From Chromera velia (lineage: Eukaryota; Sar; Chromeraceae), in NCBI GenBank assembly GCA_018398765.1, contig JAHBMJ010000625.1, positions 1 through 42,139 on the forward strand: a stretch of 42,139 nucleotides of DNA, read 5' to 3'. Positions 2,118 through 41,868 of this stretch are shown here, piece by piece (positions within the stretch are counted from its first letter, which is position 1; every line of letters starts with the position of its first letter). A model generated the notes under the pieces. The model saw only the letters and a program-made list of their open reading frames with translations, made no database searches and was not told where the DNA came from. The position numbers and the translations under genes were made by a program.

Positions 2118-4579
2118 ATGACTACGAAGAAAGTTCCGAAGATTCAGAGCATGGAAATCGCTCGAGTGGTGGTCGGCAGTGGACTCCTCGGCCTCCAAGG
2201 CTTCTGCAAGCTTTCGTCTATCTATAATGAGCTGCTCGCCCTGAGGGATGACCCGACGTGTTCAGGATTTGGGAGCGTGTGCGACGGTTTTGTGAAACCC
2301 AGAGAGAGAGAAGACGTTTGGACCTTCATTGACAGTTGTTTTAAACACGACAATATGAAAGGCTTCCAACAGATCCTTGCCTTGTGAGGCATTGCAAAGC
2401 GCTACCCATTTCTCCTCACACGTGTACTTCGGAAGAAACGGTGCTCTCCAAAGTGTGAGCAGTTTTTGAAGTAGACCGCCAATTCCCAACCGAACACGTC
2501 GTCAAACTCATATAAACCTAACAGCCAAAGAAAGCTGACAAACCCCGATAGAGAGTCCTTTTTAAATCTCTCTGACGAGGCCATTTTCGATCTGACAAGC
2601 GAGCGTTTGACCAGGTTGTTCCAAGGGAAGACTCTCCATCCCGATTCTTGGTACTCTCGCACTGAGGTTCGGACGGCTCGTTCAAGTCATGTTTTGGAGC
2701 GTATCACCGATCGTCCGTTGCTTCATGGCATTGCTCTAATCAGAGCAGGAAAGTTCGAAGAGGCGGGTATGGTTTTAAATGCTGGGGGATGGATGGACCT
2801 GTAGGACCAGCACTCCATTCAGTCAGTATACGGCTGCACTGTGCTTCGAACGCTGCTCAGCCTGCAGTGCTGTTGAAGCTCAACATGTTGTAACAGTTGG
2901 TCTTGAATAATACAAACAAGCAACAAAGCGGTCTCGATCTCCGGTGGCACCTCACTAGGAAGGCCCTAGGGAAGGCCAAAGAAGCGGGTTGCCTTGAATA
3001 GGAGTTTTGGTACGTTGAATTCATGTTTGTTGAGCATAATGAGTACACATACTCATTCGATGGCTACATAATTTCAAAGATGAATTTAACAGCCCTCGGT
3101 CTGGCGTGTCGTCACTGCAATGCTGAGACAGTGAGGGTGTTGGCAGAGGTGCAGGGACCTTTAAAGAGATCCCGCCTTCCTTTGCTGGTTCAACTTGGCG
3201 GTTGGATTCAAAAGGGGTAGAATGGGTTTTAACTTCGATTAGTCGACGATACCCGTTGTGCCGCCACCCTTGAGGCTCTAGCAGATGCGGGAGCGGACTT
3301 CAATGTTGTCAGCAGGGGGGGAAACACACCCCTCTCCCTCGCTTGCTCTTTACGACTGACACAGTCAGCGAAGGTTCTTTTAGAGAGGGGGGCGGTGACA
3401 CAGAGGGTGAGGAAAGGAAAACGAGCGCGCCACTCACCTCTCCTCATTGCTGTCATGAAAGAGGTGCACGACGCAGAATTCCTTCTCACATCTCTCCTCC
3501 TCAGTTGGCATGCCGACGCAAACATAGTCCTCAAGCGTGAAGAGGTTTGTTACACCGTTCTATAGTTCGTATTGCTTAGGAAGGAAGGTGTAGGCCCAAT
3601 TGAGCATCTAGACCTTGAAGGGGGTAGAGTGCCAGCAGTCTTGACGTTCTGATACCCTAGTTGGGAGGGAGAGGAAGTTGATGAGGACGAATGGCACAAA
3701 GAAGACGACCGATTCTGGGCCGTCGACGAGTCTGAGAGCAACCACAGTGAGTCAGATTCGCTATCCATCTACAGTTTCGAAATCGATTCCGAATTTGACT
3801 TCTTTTTCTCTGAAGAAGAGTCTGACCTTGAGGAAGAAGAAGAACAATCGGTGGTCTCTGTAGATTTATCGCCTGCTGGCATCCTTACTGCTCCCAATAC
3901 CCTCCCTTCGCCACCGGGCCCATGAGCCTTGAAGCTTGCCAAGCCAAGCTGGCAAAGCTGCTGATTGTCAATGATCATGGGGCGCGCTGTCCCACATTTC
4001 AAATCACATTGGACGGCCAGTTTGAGTCGCGTCTCCCCTCTCTTATTGGCGTGCTGCATGAAAGATTCCGACCTTGTGCGGTCGTTATACCAGAAGGCGG
4101 GGGCAAACCCGAATGCCTGTGGTATGTTGGGAGAAGAGGAGGGGAAAGAGTCCGCCCATCATCCAGTGATCTAATATATCTTCCTGGAGCTCCGACCTCC
4201 CGAGGAAGAGCTGATTGCTGGGGGGGCAGACCTGAACGTCATAACAGGTTATGGTCACGGGCTGCACTCTCTTGAGTGCACCTAGTAGAGAAGGCTGTCG
4301 GTCGTGGAGTTTCTTCTCTGTAGTGGGGTGGCTGTGGGAGGGGTGACAGATATGGATGGAAAGCGTCGTATGCCTCTGGTGGAAGCGGCTGCGATGCTAG
4401 ACCTCCCCCTTGTGACTCTGTTATTGAAGTGGGAGGCGGCCCCGAACCAGCGAGGGCTTTTGAATATGGGGGGCTCTCTGGTCCTCACATCACCTTTAGA
4501 GGCAGTGAGAGCGAAGGAGGGGTTAAAGTGCAGTCGGGTTAAGCAAATGATGAAGATGCTGCTAAACGCAGGGGCATGC
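2118..4579 (+). pseudogene. decayed ankyrin-repeat protein gene
   Basis: Ankyrin-like pieces occur in order along the plus strand but in changing frames and with stops between them. Examples are LLHGIALIRAGKFEEAGMVL near 2730, LTALGLACRHCNAETVRVL near 3085, GNTPLSLACSLRLTQSAKVL near 3330, VSPLLLACCMKDSDLVRSLY near 4040, and PLVEAAAMLDLPLVTLLLK near 4380. An acidic, Ser-rich linker follows 3660. The first piece has a good ATG at 2118 (MTTKKVPKIQSMEIARVV) and runs to a stop at 2385. Ankyrin repeats are protein-binding modules, and a partner cannot be guessed. The frame changes do not fall at clear GT-AG junctions, so I favour decay, but a multi-exon gene with poor splice signals is possible. 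Confidence 0.55.
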
Positions 4580-5932: not shown

Positions 5933-6293
5933 AAGTTTTTAACTTGTGAAACTGTTTCTTAGCCTCTTCAGCTAGCTTATAAAATCTTTTTTATTTGGAA
6001 ATAAAAAGATATTTCAACTTTACGTTGGGTCAGGCTCACTGGTATTGTGGTGATATCGAACAGTCAGCTTTTCTGGCTGTTCAAAGTTCAGGACCTTCAG
6101 CAACCGAGTGCAGATCTCGAAACCTCGAAAGTCAGAAACGCCTTATTGAATGTGATTGAATGATCACACCAGTGATCACATCAGCACACAGATATAACAA
6201 CGCAAATTCAACCGAATGCATGATGCATGCACACGCACGCGTGTCATCGAGTGATGGATCTTTCAAGGGACTACAAGATTCAAGGATGCACAC

Positions 6294-7397
6294 TCAGACA
6301 TGAGAAGCAGACCCCCTCAACCTCCGAGGGCTCTCACCGGGAAAAGGGCCACCGGGAAAAGAGCCCGCATAATAAGCATCACCGGGATAGTCAGGAACAG
6401 GCCCACCCACATCACCTCCATACCTCTCCCTCTCATCATGCTCTCTCAACCGACGAGGACTCTCACCGGGGAAAGGGCCACCGGGAAAAGGCCCCGCATA
6501 ATAAGCGTCTCCGGGATAGTCAGGAACAGGCCCACCCACATCACCTCCATACCTCTCCCTCTCATCATGCTCTCTCAACCGACGAGGACTCTCACCGGGA
6601 AAAGGGCCACCGGGAAAAGGCCCCGCATAATAAGCATCACCGGGATAGTCAGGAACAGGCCCACCCACATCACCTCCATACCTCTCCCTCTCATCACGTA
6701 GCCTTCTGTTGGCATCGGAACTTCCCGATTCCGTCTTCTGGTTCTGGCTGTTGGGAGAGAACAGACCCTGGAAGAATCCCCCCGCTGCATCTGCAAACTT
6801 GTTCCACTCGTCAGCGGCCCCACTAGCAAACTTGTGCCAGTCTGTACCGTTCGCGAATTTCTTCCATTCCTCACTGTTGGCAAACTTCTGCCAATCTGTA
6901 CCGTTCACGAAGTTCTGAAACTTTCCAGCCATCGCCTCACCCTCCTTCTTTGCAGCTTCCCCAGCTGCCTTCCCTGCCTCGGCTGCCTGGGTACCTTCTC
7001 CGTTCCCGTCTCCGCTCTCCTGTTCAGAGAGGAGACGGCTCGAGAAGTCCCCGACATACCTCGAGGCTTCTCTGAACCCGACACTCGCACCCTCCTCATC
7101 CTCGCTGGGAGGCTTCACTACAGACGCAGCAGCCGTTTTTCCTGCCAAATCTGAGAGAAGACGTTTCGATCCTCCAGCCTCTTTCTTCTCCGTACCCTTG
7201 AACAGAGACTCGAAAAAGTGGGAAGTGCCATTGGCCAACTTCTTGAACTCTGAACCGACAGCCGTGCCAAACTCTTTCGCATCTTTCTCGACTGTAGTGG
7301 CAAAGTGTGACTTGTATGTACTGTTAGAAGGTGAAGGCTCACAGAGACTTCCAACGGAAGCGCTGAGAAGCAAAAGGACTTGAAGCCTTCTGTGCAT
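6294..7397 (-). CDS. secreted repeat protein, complete copy (367 aa)
   Basis: Single-exon gene, ATG at 7397 and TGA at 6294. It has an N-terminal signal peptide (about residues 1-19), then an acidic Ala/Gly/Lys-rich region. About residues 170-215 carry degenerate repeats around WxKFAxG (DWQKFANSEEWKKFANGTDW and DWHKFASG). Then come three near-identical 43-residue repeats rich in Gly, Pro, Tyr and Arg (VGGPVPDYPGDAYYAGPFPG), separated by an RLREHDERERY linker. There are no membrane segments after the signal peptide and no catalytic motif. A structural, wall or matrix role would fit the composition but is inference. The partial twin is at 1-449, and the divergent neighbour downstream is the WD40 gene. 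Confidence 0.8.
   Translation of the reverse strand: MHRRLQVLLLLSASVGSLCEPSPSNSTYKSHFATTVEKDAKEFGTAVGSEFKKLANGTSHFFESLFKGTEKKEAGGSKRLLSDLAGKTAAASVVKPPSEDEEGASVGFREASRYVGDFSSRLLSEQESGDGNGEGTQAAEAGKAAGEAAKKEGEAMAGKFQNFVNGTDWQKFANSEEWKKFANGTDWHKFASGAADEWNKFADAAGGFFQGLFSPNSQNQKTESGSSDANRRLRDERERYGGDVGGPVPDYPGDAYYAGPFPGGPFPGESPRRLREHDERERYGGDVGGPVPDYPGDAYYAGPFPGGPFPGESPRRLREHDERERYGGDVGGPVPDYPGDAYYAGSFPGGPFPGESPRRLRGSASHV
6313..6700 (-). repeat. three 129-bp tandem repeats (43 codons each)
   Basis: The marker ctctcaccggg recurs at 6331, 6460 and 6589, an exact 129-bp period. The units are almost the same at the DNA level, so the array expanded recently or is kept uniform by conversion. Because the period is a multiple of three, the opposite strand is also open in more than one frame; those antisense ORFs are by-products. 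Confidence 0.9.
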
Positions 7398-7640
7398 CTT
7401 GAAGACTGACGGAGATCCACGGAATGAAGACCTGTATTAGCGTCTCGGTTTCAGACAAGGATGAAAAGCGGTAGTGGAAGTCCAATTCACTATGAAGAAG
7501 AGGAAATTCTCGAGGAGATCGAGCACTCTGTCAGATCGTTTTTGACTTTTTGTTGAAGGGAGAGGGAAGTTGAGAGGAGAGAGCTACACCACCTTTTCAG
7601 AAGACTTTTTGGCATCACGCGGTCTTCCGATCTATTCTTT
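6949..7640. repeat. segmental duplication, right copy
   Basis: Direct repeat of 1-690. The two copies share the 5' half of the secreted-protein gene and roughly 240 bp of its 5' flank with few differences (for example ggagatggagcac against ggagatcgagcac). They diverge where their GC-rich tracts start. Confidence 0.9.
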
Positions 7641-19587: not shown

Positions 19588-20311
19588 GCGAGACGCGTCG
19601 CCCGTCGCCCGCGACTGCAGGATCTGTCTGCGTCTTCTTTCTCTCTCGCCATCGATTCCCCATCTTGTAATCGGAACCGCTGGTGTGGGGCTTATCTGAA
19701 GGCCAGTCTCATCGACCTAAATTCTACTGCAGGCCGTCATCTCGAGAGGCGTGAAACTTGGACCAGACTGAACAGACTTCAAGAAACATCCGTGCCGCTT
19801 CGGCATGGCATTGCTTCGCCATCTATACTTCGACAGATACAGGCAGCGAATAAGCGTAAGAACCCACTCAGAGCCATTTTGCTGTGACCATCCACAATGG
19901 TTGGAGAAGCGGTGAACGTTCGATCATCACAGACTGACGGACCAGACGGATGGAGACGGGTGATCCGATATGATCCGATGGAGACGGCATTTCGAGCTCA
20001 GCTTCGATTCTCGTATCTTTCCGTATTCTTTCCGTCTCCTCTCACAAAAATCCGTTTTTCTTACATTTTCGATCTTACTCACTACTCGTCGTACTTGATC
20101 AGTGGAAACCAGTGAACCTCAATGACTTCGATGACCTCACTGTCACTGCGGTATGCATGAGTTCAAAGTCATAGCTGACCTCCAGTAGTCTGGGAGTGAG
20201 CTCTTCTGTTGTCGCTATGCAAGTCAGACTCTTTCTTTCGTTCGACGTAATCGGCGACCAAAAGAAACCGATTAGAAGCCACAGATAGAAAGGCATATTA
20301 ATATAGTCATC
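19588..20311. promoter_or_regulatory. divergent intergenic region
   Basis: About 720 bp between a minus-strand and a plus-strand start. The part to about 19719 may be coding or 5' untranslated sequence of the minus gene. The rest presumably holds both promoters; no specific element is recognisable. Confidence 0.35.
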
Positions 20312-22771
20312 ATGGCACAGCCTGGAAGCGTCATTGCTCCGGACACTTGGCAGTCTGCATACCTTCATTTGAACAAGAAGGTTGAGGATCAAGAAAAGAT
20401 TATTGCGGAGATGCAAAGGTCTCTCCGTGGCGTTGTGAGCCTTTTTGGAGACTTGGGGGGGGCGGAAAGCCTGGTGCGATCCGTCTTTCCTGCCGGCATT
20501 ATGTCTGGCTCAGAGGAAAGCAGTGCGCAGGAGTTTTTGGCGAGCGTTGACACATTGAGGAGGGAGAGGTCGGAGAGGGCGCATCACGTGCTCTTTTCTG
20601 TTTATTTGCCTCATCTGCGGCTCGTCAGGTCCCGTTTTGATGAGAAGAAAAAGAGAGTGGCGGCACTGATCGGGAGTTGGTCCTCCGCCTGTGTCCAGAA
20701 GAAAACCAGGGCTGAATGGTTGGACACGCTTTCTGATGCAGAGCGAGGGTTGTGGAAGTTTGTTTGTGATGAAGCGGTGCCACCGCACCTCAAGGCCCAT
20801 CTCTCCTGCTGGAGAGATTTTCAGTCAGCCTTGAAGGTCGTCTGGGACCTTCCCTCCGTGTGGAAACTTCTTCTCTTGAAAGCAAAGAACCCCGCCTCCC
20901 TTGCCACTCAGTTGATGATGCCTGTGCTCTTGTGGAGACGGGGTTATTACAAAGTACAGAAGAGTGTGCAAGTCGATGGGGGGGATCACCCTTTTGACCG
21001 CGCCCTCCCCAACGTAAAACTTCTTGCACCCGTCGACCGCCACTTTCTCTCTCTCCGCCGTGACGTGCTGCTTGCACTCTGGGAAGCCGCCACGGCCAAT
21101 GACCGCATCCCAGGCCGGAGAACGCTGTGTCAATGGCTTGTGACGGCTTCCCATGTGGGAGACTCGGAGACGGTTGGCATGATCGGGTCGCATTTGACTG
21201 AGCAGCAGAACCTCTCATCTGCTCAGTGGGTTGCCAGACGCATTGACAGTTTCAACCTGCGAAGTTCGGGTAGGGTGATGGGGTCGGGGGACTTGACAAG
21301 AATGGGGTGGCGTTTCGAGGTTCCCTCGTCATATTTGCCTTTTTTTGAAAACATTCGGGCGCTTCCGTTAGAGAAGAGACGTGCGTTGATTTATTCCCAG
21401 GCAGAGAAAATATCAGGGACGTCAGAGGGAATGAAACGATTTTTCTTGAACACTTACAATGGAATGGCAGGGATGGGCGGAGGTTCTCAGACAGAAGCAG
21501 AAAACCGATTTTGTAAGTTTGGAAACCCGTTCGATGCTCTGCGTTGTCTGTATCCAACCCAACACCTGGAAAGTTTCAGACCCGATGATCGCGACGTTTT
21601 GTTTTGGTACGTCGATTCGTTGGAAGCCGAGGTATTAGAATTTGAAATCACAAAAAGACAGATGAATCCAGATCAGATAGTGCGTGTGCCGAATGATAAG
21701 TTCAATTGGGGGGAGGGAGAGTGGGTGGAGATGCGGGCAGTAGACAATTCTCTCCTTCGAGCCTGTTCAGTGGGATTTCCCCGTCTGGTTGTTGGACTGC
21801 TCCGTCACGGTGGGAATCCGAAAGTGATGAAAGCCGAATCTGACGATCATGACCACCCATTTTGGGTCCCTCTGACCTGTGATCCTGTATGTCGTGTTGC
21901 CATTGAAGCGATGAATGATGGGAGGGGGCTGGGAAAAGGGGGTGAGTTTTGTCGTTTTTGGGTTTGTGTGAGAGAGCTTTTGAAGGCAGGGGGCGACCCG
22001 TGTGTGTTTTTGAACCTCCTTGAGAACAGCTTTATTGATCGATGGATTGACCACCGCGATCCCCGCAACACTGACGAGGAAGAAAAGAGAGACCCAACCC
22101 CCTTCTGTTATCCCTCCCGTCTCCTTCGTCTACAGCCTCGAGTGATGAGGCTGAGAGTACTCCTGCGTCTCTGTGCAGAGTTTTCTCTGAAAAGGAGGAG
22201 ACGGCAGGATGGAGACGGCAGTCAGAGAGAGGCTGAGTCAGATGAAGATAGAGAGATCCTCGGCCGTCTCCGCTCGTTTGCGTCTGCACTGTGCCAGAGA
22301 GACGAGGAATACAACACGGGAAGGAGACGACACAGCAGTGCTGATGGAGACGGGGAAGAAGGGAGCCGCCCGGAACATGGTATGATAAGCCTGTTCTTTG
22401 AGCCGCGGGAACCGATTCAACCGCCCAACCCTTCTGATTCCCTTTCAGCTCTCCCATCAGAAAGTCTGACGGCTCCTCAGCCCGTCACGGATGCGACAGC
22501 CCCCCCTTCTGCCCCCCCATTCATCTGTACAGAGAGTGTTGACGAGAGGATGAGGATTTTTGCCGACGAGATGATCTTCCTAGACAGATCTCTTGATGAG
22601 GCCTGGCAGATGGTCCGGAGGTGGGGGCTCCGACCTGCTGATGCGCCCCCCTGCTTCCGCCTTCCAAAGACGCCAGACTCTCTGTGTGAGTCTCTGTGGC
22701 TACAGTTGGAGGAAAGTGGTGAGGCTAGTGGTGAGGAAACAGGATCTCCAGACAATGAACTATGGACATGA
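20312..22771 (+). CDS. intronless 819-aa protein with ankyrin-like repeats
   Basis: A single 820-codon ORF from MAQPGSVIAPDTWQSAYLHL to TGA at 22769-22771. A short coiled coil is likely at residues 20-40 (LNKKVEDQEKIIAEMQ). The middle (about 80-450) is helical with no known domain. Degenerate ankyrin-type helices appear at about 478-505 (NSLLRACSVGFPRLVVGLLR, then HGGNP) and about 523-565 (VCVRELLKAGGDP). A basic KRRRRQDGD patch near 627 could be a nuclear signal. A Pro/Ser-rich linker and an acidic C-terminus follow. Lack of introns beside a 21-exon gene hints at a retrocopy or a young expanding family. Function is unknown; protein binding is likely if the ankyrin reading is right. Confidence 0.8.
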   Translation: MAQPGSVIAPDTWQSAYLHLNKKVEDQEKIIAEMQRSLRGVVSLFGDLGGAESLVRSVFPAGIMSGSEESSAQEFLASVDTLRRERSERAHHVLFSVYLPHLRLVRSRFDEKKKRVAALIGSWSSACVQKKTRAEWLDTLSDAERGLWKFVCDEAVPPHLKAHLSCWRDFQSALKVVWDLPSVWKLLLLKAKNPASLATQLMMPVLLWRRGYYKVQKSVQVDGGDHPFDRALPNVKLLAPVDRHFLSLRRDVLLALWEAATANDRIPGRRTLCQWLVTASHVGDSETVGMIGSHLTEQQNLSSAQWVARRIDSFNLRSSGRVMGSGDLTRMGWRFEVPSSYLPFFENIRALPLEKRRALIYSQAEKISGTSEGMKRFFLNTYNGMAGMGGGSQTEAENRFCKFGNPFDALRCLYPTQHLESFRPDDRDVLFWYVDSLEAEVLEFEITKRQMNPDQIVRVPNDKFNWGEGEWVEMRAVDNSLLRACSVGFPRLVVGLLRHGGNPKVMKAESDDHDHPFWVPLTCDPVCRVAIEAMNDGRGLGKGGEFCRFWVCVRELLKAGGDPCVFLNLLENSFIDRWIDHRDPRNTDEEEKRDPTPFCYPSRLLRLQPRVMRLRVLLRLCAEFSLKRRRRQDGDGSQREAESDEDREILGRLRSFASALCQRDEEYNTGRRRHSSADGDGEEGSRPEHGMISLFFEPREPIQPPNPSDSLSALPSESLTAPQPVTDATAPPSAPPFICTESVDERMRIFADEMIFLDRSLDEAWQMVRRWGLRPADAPPCFRLPKTPDSLCESLWLQLEESGEASGEETGSPDNELWT

Positions 22772-23310: not shown

Positions 23311-23411
23311 GATGGGATTCAAAAGTTTCTCAAAAAGTTCTCTTTAACATTTAAATATGATGATCATGATAATTTAGATTAATAGCCGTTATATCTGTGA
23401 TAAATTATAAT
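23311..23411. repeat. dispersed repeat interrupted by a transposon
   Basis: From gatgggattc at 23311 to gataaatt at 23406, this matches 26840-26935 over 96 bp with four substitutions and no indels. The match stops where the element at 23412 begins and resumes after the element's right end (aatataattt). Confidence 0.85.
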
Positions 23412-23726
23412 CTAGGCGTAGGATATTAAAAACAATAATCAAAAATAATAATCAAAACAAAAAAAAAATGACGATATGATTCAAATGCAAAAAATGTACA
23501 ATTTGACCTATAGGTTACTACTAGGACCTTCCGATCACCTAAAAACGTCTTCAAAAATTCAAATTTATTGTTTTAGGATTTTTGAAAGCAATTTTATCGA
23601 TTTTTATGGAGATAAATTTTGAAGTTAGTTTGTACACGATAGGCTGACTTACACAATTTTTGTATTTCCCTCTTCAAGAATTTCAACAACTCTAATTAGC
23701 ACCTCTGCCCATCCACCAACCCACCC

Positions 23727-24251
23727 TTAATTCCCCGCTGGCATCTTCATTTTTACCTTTCGCATTTTTTGGAACTCTGAAACCTTCGCGACCCTGAAAA
23801 TATTTCTAAAGCGCGTCCTATCATTGTCTTCGATCATAAGACCAAAGGTCGCAGTCTCTGCGTTTCGCTCAAACATGGGTGCGCGTAAGCACTGTGCTGT
23901 CCAGTCTTTGTGCTTGGGATCACGGGCAACAGGACCAGTGAACCGCCTTCCTGAAGCACTGAACACTGCCTGTACCTGCGCCAATTCATAACACTCTACC
24001 TCTTCCTTGCTTCCTTTCAACTTGCGCATCGTGTACAGCCATACCCACCCCTTCTCCTTGATGATATTGCCAGCATCATCTGCTGCACGCTTGCCCTTTG
24101 CCTGTTCGCGGTCCAAACGAAGCCCTTTAGCCTCAAGAGCATCAACAATGGGATTTTCTTTCTCAAGCACTGTCATTTCTTCTTTCAACACAGCAGCGAT
24201 CGGTCGAAGCTTGCTGCTGCTGTCTTCAATCAAGATTCGGAAAAACTTGTC
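23727..24251 (-). CDS. unknown ORF in transposon, divergent to the OTU gene
   Basis: The frame is open from just after a stop at 24252-24254 down to the stop at 23727. It reads DKFFRILIEDSSSKLRPIAA, then a Lys/Glu-rich part and a compact C-terminus (SGRRFTGPVARDP, FERNAETATFGLMIEDND). The first ATG is internal, at about residue 27, and plausible coding sequence precedes it, so this is probably a 3' exon or a gene that lost its start. No domain is recognised. It lies inside the element and points away from the OTU gene, with about 120 bp between them. Confidence 0.5.
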   Translation of the reverse strand, partial: DKFFRILIEDSSSKLRPIAAVLKEEMTVLEKENPIVDALEAKGLRLDREQAKGKRAADDAGNIIKEKGWVWLYTMRKLKGSKEEVECYELAQVQAVFSASGRRFTGPVARDPKHKDWTAQCLRAPMFERNAETATFGLMIEDNDRTRFRNIFRVAKVSEFQKMRKVKMKMPAGN

Positions 24252-24367
24252 TCAAAAAATGCGGCGGCCGACAGAATACGACGTTGGTCAAATCTCCCCC
24301 TCGAGCTCACGGAGGGCAGAGCAATACGTACGAGGGCCAGCCCGACTTTTTATGTCCTGCTGCGTAG

Positions 24368-25663
24368 CACAGCAAAGAAGAGTCCAAGGATGACAAGATT
24401 GAGCAACTAGTTTTGATGGTGATTCATCACATCGATCGACTTAAAAAGAAGGAGAAAGAGGGGAAAGCGAATGCAAAAAAAGTTGCTCTTCTGGCGTTTT
24501 TAAAAAAGATTCGGGCTTCGGGACCTCCCAAGAGTCTAGGGAGAAACTTTTTTCTCAATGAGGAGAGGAAAGGCACTTTCACAAAGATCGATGGAAAAGA
24601 GAAATTCAGTTTCGTCTGTGTTTGTCATGCTGACATGAAGGGAAAACAGGTGACCCCAAACCACTTCACAAAGGAAAAGGACAAATCATGGAGCATGCAT
24701 GCATGGTTTGACCATTGCAAAAGAGAGCATCCTGAGATTAAAACCACAGACGGAAGTCAAAAGAGCGGGCGGGGTCGGCCTCAATCTGCTGCGACGCAGG
24801 CAGCCAAAAAGAGGAAAATGGAAGAAGAAGAGAAGAAAAAGAAAGAGGAAGCAGCAAAAGCGAATGCAAAGAGAGAGAGTGAGAAACAGAAAGACACCGA
24901 TTCAGAAGTGAAGGGGGAGCAGAAGAAATAGACAACGATATTCACCTTTTTTGGCCCTGGACTCTCTGAAAAGAAGACGGATGGTTTCGCCCCACAGGGG
25001 GCACTTCGACTCGGAAGAGAAGGGGCCGCAGGAGAAGACAAGACTCAGTTAGTTGACGGAGTTGAGTTGTCCCTCCCCAAGTGGATCGACTATGCGCTTC
25101 AGCTGCAGAATGGGGAAGAGAGCGATTGCGCTCTTTCCTCTCTCCCTCTGACAACCCCTGTCATGAAAGCGCCGGGGGATGGAAGATGTTTGTATCATTG
25201 CTTCTCCCGCAAATTCGGAGGGACATGCGAGTCTCACCTTTCCAGGATCACCAATTTTATTCGAACAGTAGGGAGTGGTGAGACCCTTGTGTTTGGCACA
25301 CCGATCGGGGAGGAGGAAGGTTGGATTACGCTCTGTTGTGCCGACGAAGTCAAGAGACTCGGCCTTCTGTCCGACGAGGGCCTGTCCGGCAGACGGAGTC
25401 TTGACATAGACAAATATGCCCGTGCTCTGGAAGGTCGCCTCATTGAAGGGCGTGTATGGGGTAGGTATGTGGAAATGATTTGCTTCTCATTCATAAAGGA
25501 CGTGCGGATTCACGTCTTTAGAAAAGAAACTGATGTGTACAGAAGACTGTGTGTCCTAGGTAAAAAGGAGATGAAGAAAGAAATTTTTTTGCTTTGGCAG
25601 CAGAAAGTGGAAGGGGATCACTATGATGTGCTAGAGCCTCATTCTGTTCTCCAAGCCTATTAA
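24368..25663 (+). pseudogene. BED-like zinc finger plus OTU protease, split by one TAG
   Basis: One frame runs from just after a stop at 24365 to the stop at 25661, broken only by TAG at 24929-24931. The first part is Lys-rich with a likely BED-type finger: CVC at 24617-24625 and WSMHAWFDHCKREHP near 24690-24733. A Lys/Glu-rich coiled segment follows. After the TAG the same frame reads TTIFTFFGPGLSEKK and leads to an OTU domain. Its GDGRCLYHC motif has Asp at 25178 and Cys at 25187, and HYDVLEP has His at 25619. OTU proteins cleave ubiquitin or related linkages, and all three key residues are present. The first ATG (24416) lies inside plausible coding sequence, so a 5' exon may end near the cacag at 24368-24372. 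The TAG may be a disabling mutation, a readthrough site, or a break between two proteins. Confidence 0.65.
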
Positions 25664-25716
25664 AAGCTGTGATTGAGGTCATTGTCTTTGCTCTCAATGT
25701 ATCTCAATGAAAACAA

Positions 25717-25726
25717 TTGTAAATAA
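25717..25726 (+). terminator. possible poly(A) signal of the OTU gene
   Basis: taaataaag, containing AATAAA, lies about 60 bp after the OTU stop codon and still inside the element. In AT-rich DNA this may be chance. Confidence 0.35.
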
Positions 25727-25951
25727 AGTGTTTCGTAGATTTTTATAAAAAAGATCAAAGCAGTTAGAACTTACATCTTGACTAGTGTTTTAAAATGACT
25801 TGACCTAGGTCTTGATCGTTTAATTCAAAACTAATTTCAAAAATAAAAAAAATCAAAATCAAATATTAAAAAAAAAAAAAGTGGAAAAAATGACGTTATG
25901 TTTTGTTATTTGATTTTGATGTCCTACGCCTAGATTATAATAATATAATTT

Positions 25952-26839
25952 GATTGATTGATTGATTGATGCCAAACCCTAGGTGGAGTTAGAACTCCCG
26001 GGCGGTGTATACATGCATGGGTCTGTTCAATTATGCCAGCTGCAAGTTAAGTAGACAACAGTTATTCGAACTTAATCTAATCAATCATTTACTACAATAT
26101 GATGAGAAATCATAAAGAGAAGAGAGGGTTGAGAACGCAAGAGCGATGTGATGAACTTGTGAACCCCCAGATTAGAAAAGGAGGCGGATGCAAAGGGTGA
26201 GTCACAACGAGTGAAGCAGTCTGATTGAATTAATGTTAACCACTACAAAAAGCCTTGTTCGGCAGTCCATCGGGGGCAGATAGAGAGACGATGAATAAAA
26301 TCATCTACACACCGGCAGCAGGCTTCATAGGTGCACAGCTTTCTATCAGAGCAACCAACAGACAGTCCACCTTGCCCGCCTATCGGGTTATATGTCAGCA
26401 TGCGTAAAAAAGAAAAGATCGAGCCCCCCGTAACTGACAGGGCAGAATGGGGAAGGGCAGAGACAGAAGGAACACCAGAAGACGACTTGCTGCACAGGAG
26501 AAAGATAAACATACGGCGGAAAGACGGGAAGTCACGCTGCAGAGGGGTGAGTCTAGTAAGGAGGAGAAAGTGAGAGGAAGATTGCCCATCATCCTCAGAA
26601 GCTTTCATGCATTCCTTTGCAACTGTCTGTCTCACCTTGCCCTTGAAGAAAAGTGAGCCGGTGCCTTGTGCCTTATGATCATTCTGCTCGCGTTGGGAAG
26701 ACAGATCGGGCTTGACCCTCAGCGAGCGGACAGAAATCAAATCAGCCCAACGAAGCAGCCTGTCTATAGACCTTCTGAATTATTGGCAGCAGTTATTCTT
26801 CCAGGCACGCAACATGGCTGCAGGAATAGTGTGTGTTGT
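25952..26839. other. intergenic, one doubtful ORF
   Basis: Begins with four GATT units, then mixed sequence. A minus-strand frame at 26243-26740 is open and Cys-containing near its end (CTYEACCRCVDDF), but it has no domain, no good start context and no partner exon. It is not called as a gene. The stretch 26240-26830 is less AT-rich than its flanks and may be an insertion or gene remnant. Confidence 0.4.
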
Positions 26840-26950
26840 GATGGGATTCAAAAGTTTCTAAAAAAGTTCTCTTTAATATTTAAATGTGATGATCATGATG
26901 ATTTAGATTAATAGCCGTTATATCTGTGATAAATTGCAATAATATAATTT
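26840..26950. repeat. unoccupied paralogue of the transposon target
   Basis: Matches 23311-23406 (96 bp, four differences) and then continues as gcaataatataattt, the last 13 bases of which match the right flank of the element (25939-25951). No element is inserted here. Confidence 0.8.
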
Positions 26951-39839: not shown

Positions 39840-41868
39840 AGGGGGAGAAGAAGGCAAATCAAAAGGAGGAGCAACAATTGGCCCTCCGTCCACCCCCTCC
39901 CTAGACCTTCAGACCAAAGACCAACGTCTCTTGCGTTCTGTGGTCAAAGGACCGCCTCACTTCAGGAGCTAAAGAGACGCACAAATCATGGAAAGGGAAA
40001 AGACTCGAAAACAAAGGAGGAAGAAATTCCTGAACAACGACAAAAAATGACAGAAGACAGGAACAGGAAACGAATGATTGGGATGGAACCCATGCCGGTA
40101 CAACAAATCGCGATGTCAACGTTTCTTTCGAGAGACATGCATGCACCCAGACAGACGTGCCTGGCGTCCTCCATCTATCCTCCATTCCCCCCCCCCTGCG
40201 CGTACCTTCTTCCGCCTCCCCTCTCGATTCCGAACGCCTCTCCTCGCGCCCGCAGATCCCCTAACTTGTCTGCAAGCAGCCGTGCCAGAGCAGACCGTTG
40301 AGTCCGTCTCTTCAGAATCATCACGGTTCCACAGTGACGAGCAGAGAGCCCGCTGGAGTTGTTCGCGTCCCTCCCCTCGGTGGTGTGTCGGGTCTGCCTC
40401 TGCTGTCTCCGTTCCTTCCTCTGCTGCTTCCGGATGGTCCTCCGGCTATCGTGTTCGCGGGTCGCCAGGGGCAAGGGAAGGTTGGAAGGGTCTGAGGACT
40501 GCACGTGCACACAAGCATGAGGAAGCTGAGAAGAGAAACTTTTTCTTCAAAAGACGCGGACACAAACGCACAAACTAAAGGCGCGTACGGACGGATCAAC
40601 CTTTCAACGAACGCACCTGACAGATCGAAGAAGAGGTCTCCCTGGAGACAAAAAGAAAAAAAAAAGACACGAGGGAAACCTGCAAAAATCCAGAGCTTCC
40701 CGAGAAACCACCTCACGGAACTGCAGAACAAGAATGGAAAAAATAACTCCTCAACGTTGCCGGCGTCCTGCCACCGTCGCCGGCTCGTCCTCAAAAAAAT
40801 AAACCCGTCTTTCTCTTCACATGCAGTTCACCCCAGAAAGAGTAATGCCGGTCTGTCTTTCAGTTCATGGTGATGCAGAGCTATCGCCTCAGATAGCCAG
40901 CCCGACTCGAAGAAGCAGACTGACATCATAACGAGAGCCGCTCGCTCTCGAAAGGCCAACTCCCGTAGGAGAGGGAGGCTGAGAGAAGAGATCTTTTCGA
41001 TGACGTGCCCTGACCAGCTTTGCCTCCATCTCGTACAGCGCCTTCACTCTCTGCAGAGAAAGTGCGCATCATTACAGCACGGGACGGACAGGAGGATGAG
41101 CCAATGGAGGAAAAATAAGTAAAGGCAAACAAACCAGAAAGAAGGAGAACACAACCAAGCAGCAAGGGAGGGCAAAAAGAATCCCATGCAGGCCCCCACC
41201 CTGCCTGCCTGCAGAGAGAGGATCAACCGCTCCACCTGCATGGCTGGATGGATGGATAGACAGACCACCGCCACACAAAACGACAGGCTTCCTTCATTCG
41301 ACAGAGTTCCGACAACCACGAGGAGCGTTGGACAACCGAAACGAGACTGCGACGGCACGCGCCACCAGATTTTCTTCACGCTCTCTGTCTTACACACACA
41401 GAGACAGAACGCATCACGAATCCACGTCCCATATTGCCGCATTGACTCAATTACCCATCCATGTTGACTGAATTACGCCACTTTCTTTTTTCATCCATGT
41501 TCTCTGTCAATCGCAGGCCGATGAATGCAAGCACACGTGCACAGGTGAACGATTTTTTTGCGTTTCATATAGATAGGCCCAGGGCCCAATCAAAAAGTGC
41601 GGCTCTTCTGCAATCCTTTCTGCCCCCCCGACGCTATTCCTCTGTTTTCTCTGTTCCTTTTCAGACTCGACTCTCGTCATTTCATTCCAACACGACAAGA
41701 CAAGGAAGGAGGTGAAATAAGGCATCTCTCTCTTCCCTAGTCACTCATTCACTCGTGCTCGAATAAACGACTCACTAACCCACCCTCGCATGCTGGAAGC
41801 TCCTGTGGCAGAACTGCCAGATGAGCTGACATCGGACCGTGTCAGACAGGCTCAGCTCGGCAAGCCAC
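31362..41868 (-). CDS. giant low-complexity, probably nuclear protein (5' end outside window)
   Basis: Six exons join in phase on the minus strand: 41784-41868, 40925-41050, 40206-40498, 39398-39770, 34599-38924 and 34163-31362 (TGA at 31362-31364), about 2,670 residues. Signals include donor gtgagt at 34598 and acceptor gtgcag before 34163. The N-terminal part is helical and charged (ALYEMEAKLVRARHRKD; RERARKVKAKMASRVCHLL; AETERLEAARQAVRDAAARF). The middle part is then dominated by Ser, Pro, Ala, Glu and Arg runs, acidic clusters (SYDYDDDDEDGEDS), basic KRERKKKKAPK and one isolated CEVCMEEW. The last exon has a short folded-looking part (VEFYDDLKRLYGASPGEAVE; EWMHLRRGEIVRMVRHILQA) and ends in KAGSKGRKK. 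Composition suggests a disordered nuclear protein. The helical N-terminal exons vaguely recall an HSA-type chromatin module, which is weak inference. No catalytic domain is visible. Confidence 0.8.
34164..34598 (-). other. 435-nt intron between the two largest exons
   Basis: Donor gtgagt and acceptor gtgatgtgcag, phase 0. Each flanking ORF extends a little into it, which makes two separate genes appear at first sight. Joined, the protein reads DVDMLGR-GGSRMNPYSGD. Confidence 0.8.
39298..39361. repeat. (CA)n microsatellite in intron
   Basis: About 30 CA units with one T interruption, close to the donor of exon 39398-39770 of the giant gene. Confidence 0.95.
39774..39834. repeat. (CA)n(GA)n compound microsatellite at an acceptor
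   Basis: On the minus strand this reads (TC)n(TG)n and runs directly into the cag acceptor of exon 39398-39770, so the repeat serves as the pyrimidine-containing tract. Confidence 0.9.

Follow-up and report, generated by a model that had tools for sequence, protein, structure and literature searches.

What is a gene for an OTU-like cysteine protease doing between the inverted ends of a DNA transposon in the alga Chromera velia? The question is raised by contig JAHBMJ010000625.1 of assembly GCA_018398765.1, which was analysed at its full length of 42,139 bp and is referred to below as the window (contig C624 in our numbering). A preliminary description of this stretch, made from the sequence alone, had reported a hAT-like transposon with an OTU protease gene. 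We find at positions 23412-25933 a 2,522-bp copy of a terminal inverted repeat (TIR) DNA transposon, which is decayed and internally shortened. It is likely, in our judgement, that this is a non-autonomous, internally deleted cut-and-paste copy, mobilised in trans, of a family that encodes two proteins, namely P1, which would be the transposase, and P2, which would be a deubiquitinase. The family has moved with 8-bp target duplications, its deletion derivatives have moved as well, P1 and P2 have stayed linked over a long time, and both genes have been under constraint.

The element is delimited in the window by the following features:

23404..23411, no strand: left 8-bp copy of the target duplication, ATTATAAT (sequence, and the empty paralogous site)
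25934..25941, no strand: right 8-bp copy of the target duplication, ATTATAAT (sequence)
23412..23423, plus strand: left terminal inverted repeat, CTAGGCGTAGGA (sequence, and genome-wide end counts)
25922..25933, minus strand: right terminal inverted repeat, TCCTACGCCTAG (sequence, and genome-wide end counts)

Including the duplication, the inverted arms are 41 nt long, imperfect, and 85% complementary. In the 177.8-Mb assembly (4,040 contigs) the exact 12-mer terminus occurs 73 times versus 8 times for its reversed control, and for a degenerate 28-nt version of the end, allowing 3 mismatches at most, the counts are 131 versus 0; the best 100 of these 131 positions were used for contig comparisons. 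Because of these counts, a chance origin of the paired ends and duplications is excluded. Among the loci read, left ends were paired with right ends of the opposite type, and both flanks were present for 24 pairs. The 8-bp flanks are identical in 18 of the 24 and differ by at most one mismatch in 22, and a 9-bp flank match was found in 0/24. When mates were shuffled, 3.8% reached the level of one mismatch or fewer, which is about the rate at which the shuffle restores the true mate. The exceptions are found on C1416 and on C3971, where the GTTCTAGA copies are offset by 3 bases. A further end pair on C959 lacks the right flank and stands outside the 24, and in an older copy on C586 TAGTGCGT flanks both ends, the left one being too mismatched for the pairing script. 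Inverted termini, a duplication of fixed length, and many copies at different targets characterize a class II TIR element. The ends and the duplication that had been reported at 23404..25941 are present at these coordinates, and further copies with the 12-bp termini, which had been anticipated, exist throughout the genome.

The window also holds the target as it looks without the element:

26839..26950, plus strand: paralogous empty insertion site, a repeat copy without the element (joined-flank match)

A 102-nt repeat in the window terminates exactly at the left insertion point, and the joined flanks match its partner at 26839-26950 across this point (94.6% over 112 positions). The partner provides 10 further bases beyond the insertion point, with 2 differences within the target octamer. 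This is an empty paralogous site, short on its right side.

A longer form of the element is present at locus L039 (C3231:6248-10438), which at 4,191 bp is the longest copy read without a nested insertion. The close copies read align to L039 as pieces with internal deletions, and in the window copy the deletion spans element positions 864-2508:

24271..24274, no strand: junction of the internal deletion, where L039 position 863 abuts position 2509 (alignment to L039; also in C1792)

The 863/2509 junction is common to the window (ATTATAAT) and C1792 (GCCGGTGG), which have different target duplications; another junction is common to C3441 (GCCAAGCC) and C3165 (GCTTAACT), and a third to C53, C3541 and C961. 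Since identical junctions sit at different target duplications, the deleted copies have themselves moved, and proteins acting in trans were therefore required. The short copies would thus be moved in trans, and the window copy would have been mobilised by proteins encoded elsewhere. The original view of a transposon with an OTU gene holds to this extent, but it had overlooked the minus-strand gene P1 and the status of the copy as a deletion derivative.

Longer copies were considered as autonomous forms and rejected. The length of the 8-12 kb copies (L044, L050, L052/L053) is explained by nested frames that, judged by eye, resemble polyproteins of long terminal repeat (LTR) retroelements, and the 3.35-kb copy on C3971 holds low-complexity repeats. 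Related ends were also observed outside of the close copies. A mini-element of 218 bp at L056 4308-4525 (C3810) has the ends CTAGACGCCGG / CTAGGCGCCGG, is flanked on both sides by a perfect 8-bp repeat, ACTGCCCC, and lies about 275 bp from a distant OTU relative on C3810; it is possibly another branch with CTAGGCG-type ends. A further subfamily with related ends CTAGGC(A/G)GAGGACAACATAAATAAAAT is found at L057 2936 (C852) and L051 1403 (C3971).

In L039, P1 and P2 are arranged head-to-head. P1 is a single minus-strand frame from element position 2154 to 238 (639 codons including the stop, about 638 amino acids), and P2 is a single plus-strand frame from 2248 to 3921 (558 codons including the stop), with a lysine-rich middle part and a C-terminal OTU domain. 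Internal stops interrupt both in L039 (2 in P1, 4 in P2), and the stops of other copies lie mostly elsewhere; those that are shared may go back to recurrent C-to-T changes and hence were not used as proof of descent. The window copy encodes neither protein whole. It holds the following parts:

24272..25663, plus strand: P2 from about codon 88 to the stop, with in-frame TAG codons at 24365-24367 and 24929-24931 (frame, and alignment to L039)
24605..24743, plus strand: stretch containing Cys and His, called "BED-like" in the preliminary description (no Pfam zf-BED match)
25172..25624, plus strand: OTU-like cysteine protease domain with DGRC box and GDHYD His box (Pfam, family alignment, and PDB profile)
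23649..24274, minus strand: 3' third of P1, starting near codon 430 and reaching the terminal stop codon (639), interrupted by stops in the window copy (alignment to L039)

The stretch 24368-25663 had been read as one uninterrupted frame. Because of the TAG at 24929-24931, it consists of two open frames in register, and the finger-like region and the OTU domain share this register in separate open frames. The finger itself did not hold up, as zf-BED gave no Pfam match at E<=1 with the window frame or at E<=5 with its L039 counterpart, and its cysteines are spaced CxC instead of following the CxxC...HxxxH signature of BED fingers. For OTU there is a weak match: among Pfam families OTU alone matches this frame at E<=1, with 13.7 bits (E 0.09) against a cut-off of 23.3, and both the Cys box (DGxC, here DGRC) and the C-terminal His box (GDHYD) are present in the window copy. 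A Pfam OTU match at E<=1 is found in 6 of 7 family members, among which the C3810 relative exceeds the cut-off (24.3 bits, E 4.7e-5), while L013 reaches 15.6 and the C852 relative 13.2 bits. The OTU Cys is invariant across the 7 aligned family members. A family profile compared with PDB returned 9 sequences up to E 10 (best E 0.038), comprising 4 named OTU proteins, 3 viral polymerase entries whose fragments correspond, as we read them, to viral OTU domains, and a further 2 that are unrelated. The genome contains 76 OTU matches, and phage records hold no relatives of the OTU frame. The sub-cut-off Pfam rows HemY_N, DUF5417, DUF1663 and Ribosomal_60s were not used. On this basis we take the C-terminal domain of P2 to be a divergent OTU domain, and the enzyme of the family is predicted to be, probably, ubiquitin-removing.

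Relatives of P1 are likewise common in the genome, with at least 95 matches and identities down to 38% (best 94 of 172 candidates scored). The P1 fragment of the window gave one sub-cut-off Pfam match (DUF5417, E 0.088), which was not used. P1 has one weak match in PHROGs (E 0.015), to an entry of unknown function, and viral_contigs hold no relatives of P1 or OTU. An intron or deletion in P1 residues 121-240, suspected from a low coding score, was rejected: these residues are taken as coding because L042 keeps the frame through them, with stops at other places, and because distant relatives align to P1 over roughly residues 193-300 with 38-56% identity. A random stretch of 355 nt was open in 452 of 20000 simulations.

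The two genes are also linked outside L039. Head-to-head arrangement of P1 and OTU is seen in 34 of the 35 contigs that hold both within 6 kb (exception C3727), 14 of the 34 having an OTU identity below 80%, and the head-to-head subfamilies span identities of 52-79% for OTU and 40-75% for P1. OTU without P1 was found on 28 contigs and P1 without OTU on 47, and deletion would explain many of these single-gene contigs. Constraint was assessed with 12 loci aligned to L039 by nucleotides, in which 17 of the 24 locus-gene combinations had at least 60 codons; amino-acid identity was compared with a null in which the observed base changes are reassigned among sites carrying the base in question. Between subfamilies, amino-acid identity exceeds the null in 7 of 7 comparisons with z of 2.7-6.8 (P1: L045 3.5, L052 2.7, L055 6.3; P2: L045 5.0, L033 4.3, L032 6.8, L027 5.7), the changes being mostly at third positions. 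Within the young burst it is near the null in 10 of 10 comparisons (z -0.8 to 1.4). A constraint test with alignment at the protein level was discarded, as its alignments crossed frame shifts (e.g. L045 P1, 59% nucleotide identity) and its z of 4.6-8.4 were inflated. The constraint between subfamilies indicates that P1 and P2 were functional in the source lineages, and the near-null identity within the burst indicates that the young copies tested drift freely. Since selection kept the OTU gene intact in the past of the family, the element probably needs this gene to move or survive.

We hypothesize that P1 is, or contains, the transposase, and that P2 would act as a deubiquitinase on the transposition complex, or on host proteins of silencing or repair, stripping them of ubiquitin or a comparable tag; such an action may protect or permit transposition. 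Several observations weigh against this model. Pfam gives nothing for P1 up to E 10, no transposase motif was found in it, its matches in PDB are at chance level only, and its hydrophobic stretches at about residues 133-224 are odd for a transposase. Element positions 1789-2508 are found only in L039 among the copies read, except for 2079-2224 in another subfamily, and L039 may itself be internally incomplete. Because of these hydrophobic stretches, and because most of 1789-2508 is confined to L039, a domain may have been lost, or an autonomous partner may exist separately. Regarding P2, the OTU score of the window copy is below the Pfam cut-off, the Asp of the triad is replaced by Asn in C3810 and C619 and the His by Cys in the C852 row, and a single-sequence AlphaFold model of the window OTU was useless (mean predicted local distance difference test score, pLDDT, of 32).

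The alternative that survives best, which we regard as possible rather than probable, assigns the transposase to a separate, unread autonomous element with CTAGGCG ends, for which the P1-P2 element would be a long-lived partner, P1 and OTU being accessory. In line with this, Pfam recognises no transposase in P1 or P2 of L039. On C2894 an exact family end at 40063 is accompanied by a diverged P2-like region at 41163-41487 (39-60%) with no OTU match among the matches listed; this region may represent a different cargo or the remains of an OTU. There is also a second subfamily, about 20 short copies of which keep a central 140 bp and both ends (L004 read), and in it C3544:34181-40353 and C3320:46244-53104 have 6-7 kb between parts that are near each other in other copies, which may reflect nested insertions or a longer form. 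Finally, 31 of the 131 ends lie outside the matches listed. On the other hand, no tabulated end pair exceeds 4,191 bp, nested-insertion copies apart, and nested insertions are the likelier explanation of the gaps on C3544 and C3320, because the one on C3544 has no P1 match among the matches listed. The MULE transposase domain has no match in the genome, its control search being positive in 3 of 14 named genomes; KDZ and P-type RNase H-like transposases have none either, with control searches that were also silent; and the genome has 7 loci with a hAT dimerisation domain, none of them on a terminus contig among the matches listed. The linkage of P1 and P2 across subfamilies and the constraint on both further argue against a separate autonomous element.

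By elimination, P1 is the best candidate for the transposase. We tentatively put forward, as an idea that may well fail, that the family represents a new cut-and-paste superfamily of eukaryotes, with several subfamilies in one chromerid-like alga, in which a novel transposase P1 (or a membrane-like mobility orphan) would be combined with an obligatory, separate OTU deubiquitinase. This claim hinges on P1.

With respect to the function of P2, the main rival is that OTU serves as a processing protease, cutting P2 or another protein of the element, and is not a deubiquitinase. The OTU domain is divergent here, and a preprint proposes that vOTU-like domains in the polymerases of Polinton-like viruses and their relatives cleave the very proteins that contain them (PMC11071308); P1 and P2 being separate genes speaks against such a role, which we consider unlikely. 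Even less probable, and disfavoured, is that the OTU gene is passive cargo without a role in the element, captured once by a family resembling miniature inverted-repeat transposable elements (MITEs). Many copies have indeed lost most of the OTU gene, and those examined are interrupted by stops or deletions, but passive cargo fits neither with the constraint between subfamilies nor with head-to-head linkage retained at such low identities of OTU and P1. The hAT membership originally suggested, with OTU as a captured gene, is largely refuted and very improbable: short inverted ends, many internal-deletion derivatives, and a duplication length of 8 bp fit this superfamily, but the nTnnnnAn consensus of hAT target duplications is seen in just 1 of 22 duplications (that of the window itself), P1 and P2 contain no hAT domain according to Pfam, and the 7 hAT loci are unlinked to the ends among the matches listed.

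Among known carriers of such proteases, Helentrons are not known to have target duplications or long TIRs. Helentrons move by Rep/helicase and carry OTU in a separate additional open reading frame (ORF), the conservation of which across families has been read as favouring a function in transposition (PMC4067079); OTU in Helentrons/Helitrons is also mentioned elsewhere (PMC2836005). The family described here shares the separate ORF with Helentrons and differs from them by its TIRs and 8-bp duplications. Ginger1 elements carry an OTU or Ulp1 protease, which was proposed to act in transposition or in signalling for repair; their OTU is a C-terminal domain of a transposase resembling Gypsy integrases, and they have 4-bp CCGG/CCGT duplications, TIRs of 40-270 bp, and TGTNR ends (PMC2836005). 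Like Ginger1, the present family is a eukaryotic TIR DNA transposon carrying an OTU protease; unlike Ginger1, it has a separate, divergent OTU gene, varied 8-bp duplications, and CTAGGCG ends, and P2 upstream of OTU gave no Pfam match to an integrase. KDZ/Zisupton elements have 8-bp duplications (Zisupton, Dileera) and an accessory TET/JBP gene proposed to counter silencing (PMC12730594), and hence resemble our family in both the duplication and the presence of an accessory enzyme gene, this being OTU and not TET/JBP in our case. Mutator-like elements carry a Ulp1 protease (PMC2836005), which is likewise a cysteine protease directed at a ubiquitin-like modifier, but not of OTU type. Otubain-like genes annotated on a bacterial artificial chromosome clone in a soybean CACTA study (PMC2613891) are not assigned here to a transposon. 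A literature search covering mostly titles and the beginnings of abstracts, Repbase not included, turned up no TIR element that combines 8-bp duplications with a separately encoded OTU protein. OTU carriage is thus known from Ginger1 and Helentrons, and a separate OTU gene in a TIR element with 8-bp duplications is a new combination in the literature searched.

The copies are further marked by a strongly biased decay. Substitutions in 22 young copies among loci L001-L037 were polarised by older copies and counted per copy, shared changes being counted repeatedly, and the resulting 569 comprise 476 C-to-T changes (on either strand), 35 T-to-C changes and 58 transversions. At CpA and CpG the C-to-T rates are 6.9% and 8.2%, 3-4 times those at CpC (2.0%) and CpT (2.3%). 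This decay resembles repeat-induced point mutation (RIP) or methylation-deamination, which is unexpected in an alga; the papers listed by a literature search on RIP-like C-to-T decay were, judged by titles, all on fungi. LTR-like pairs of direct repeats were also inspected. Transitions make up 20 of 21 differences between 6158-6631 and 9521-9993 of L042, 8 of 11 between 3367-3622 and 9273-9528 of L044, 6 of 8 between 2287-2578 and 8276-8567 of L050, and 5 of 6 between 1-142 and 8844-8985 of L053. These four pairs are four of five rows, and three of them lie within element copies. Because the differences between the pairs are mainly transitions, the C-to-T decay may be genome-wide.

Two other features of the window were noted. 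An open frame of 831 amino acids at 20276-22771 (plus strand) stops about 640 bp before the insertion, and Pfam gives no match to it at E<=0.01. At 6316-6696 a 129-bp unit is repeated three times in tandem (95% matches), overlapping a minus-strand frame of 380 amino acids at 6294-7436.

Proteases for ubiquitin-like modifiers recur in unrelated transposons, as OTU in Ginger1 and Helentrons and as Ulp1 in Mutator-like elements. In the family described here, the OTU gene is separate and constrained, and deletion derivatives are many, so that the need for OTU can be tested with short reporters flanked by the ends. If P1 is truly the transposase, it would represent a new type of transposase. The strong C-to-T decay, in turn, suggests a methylation- or RIP-like pressure on repeats in an alga.

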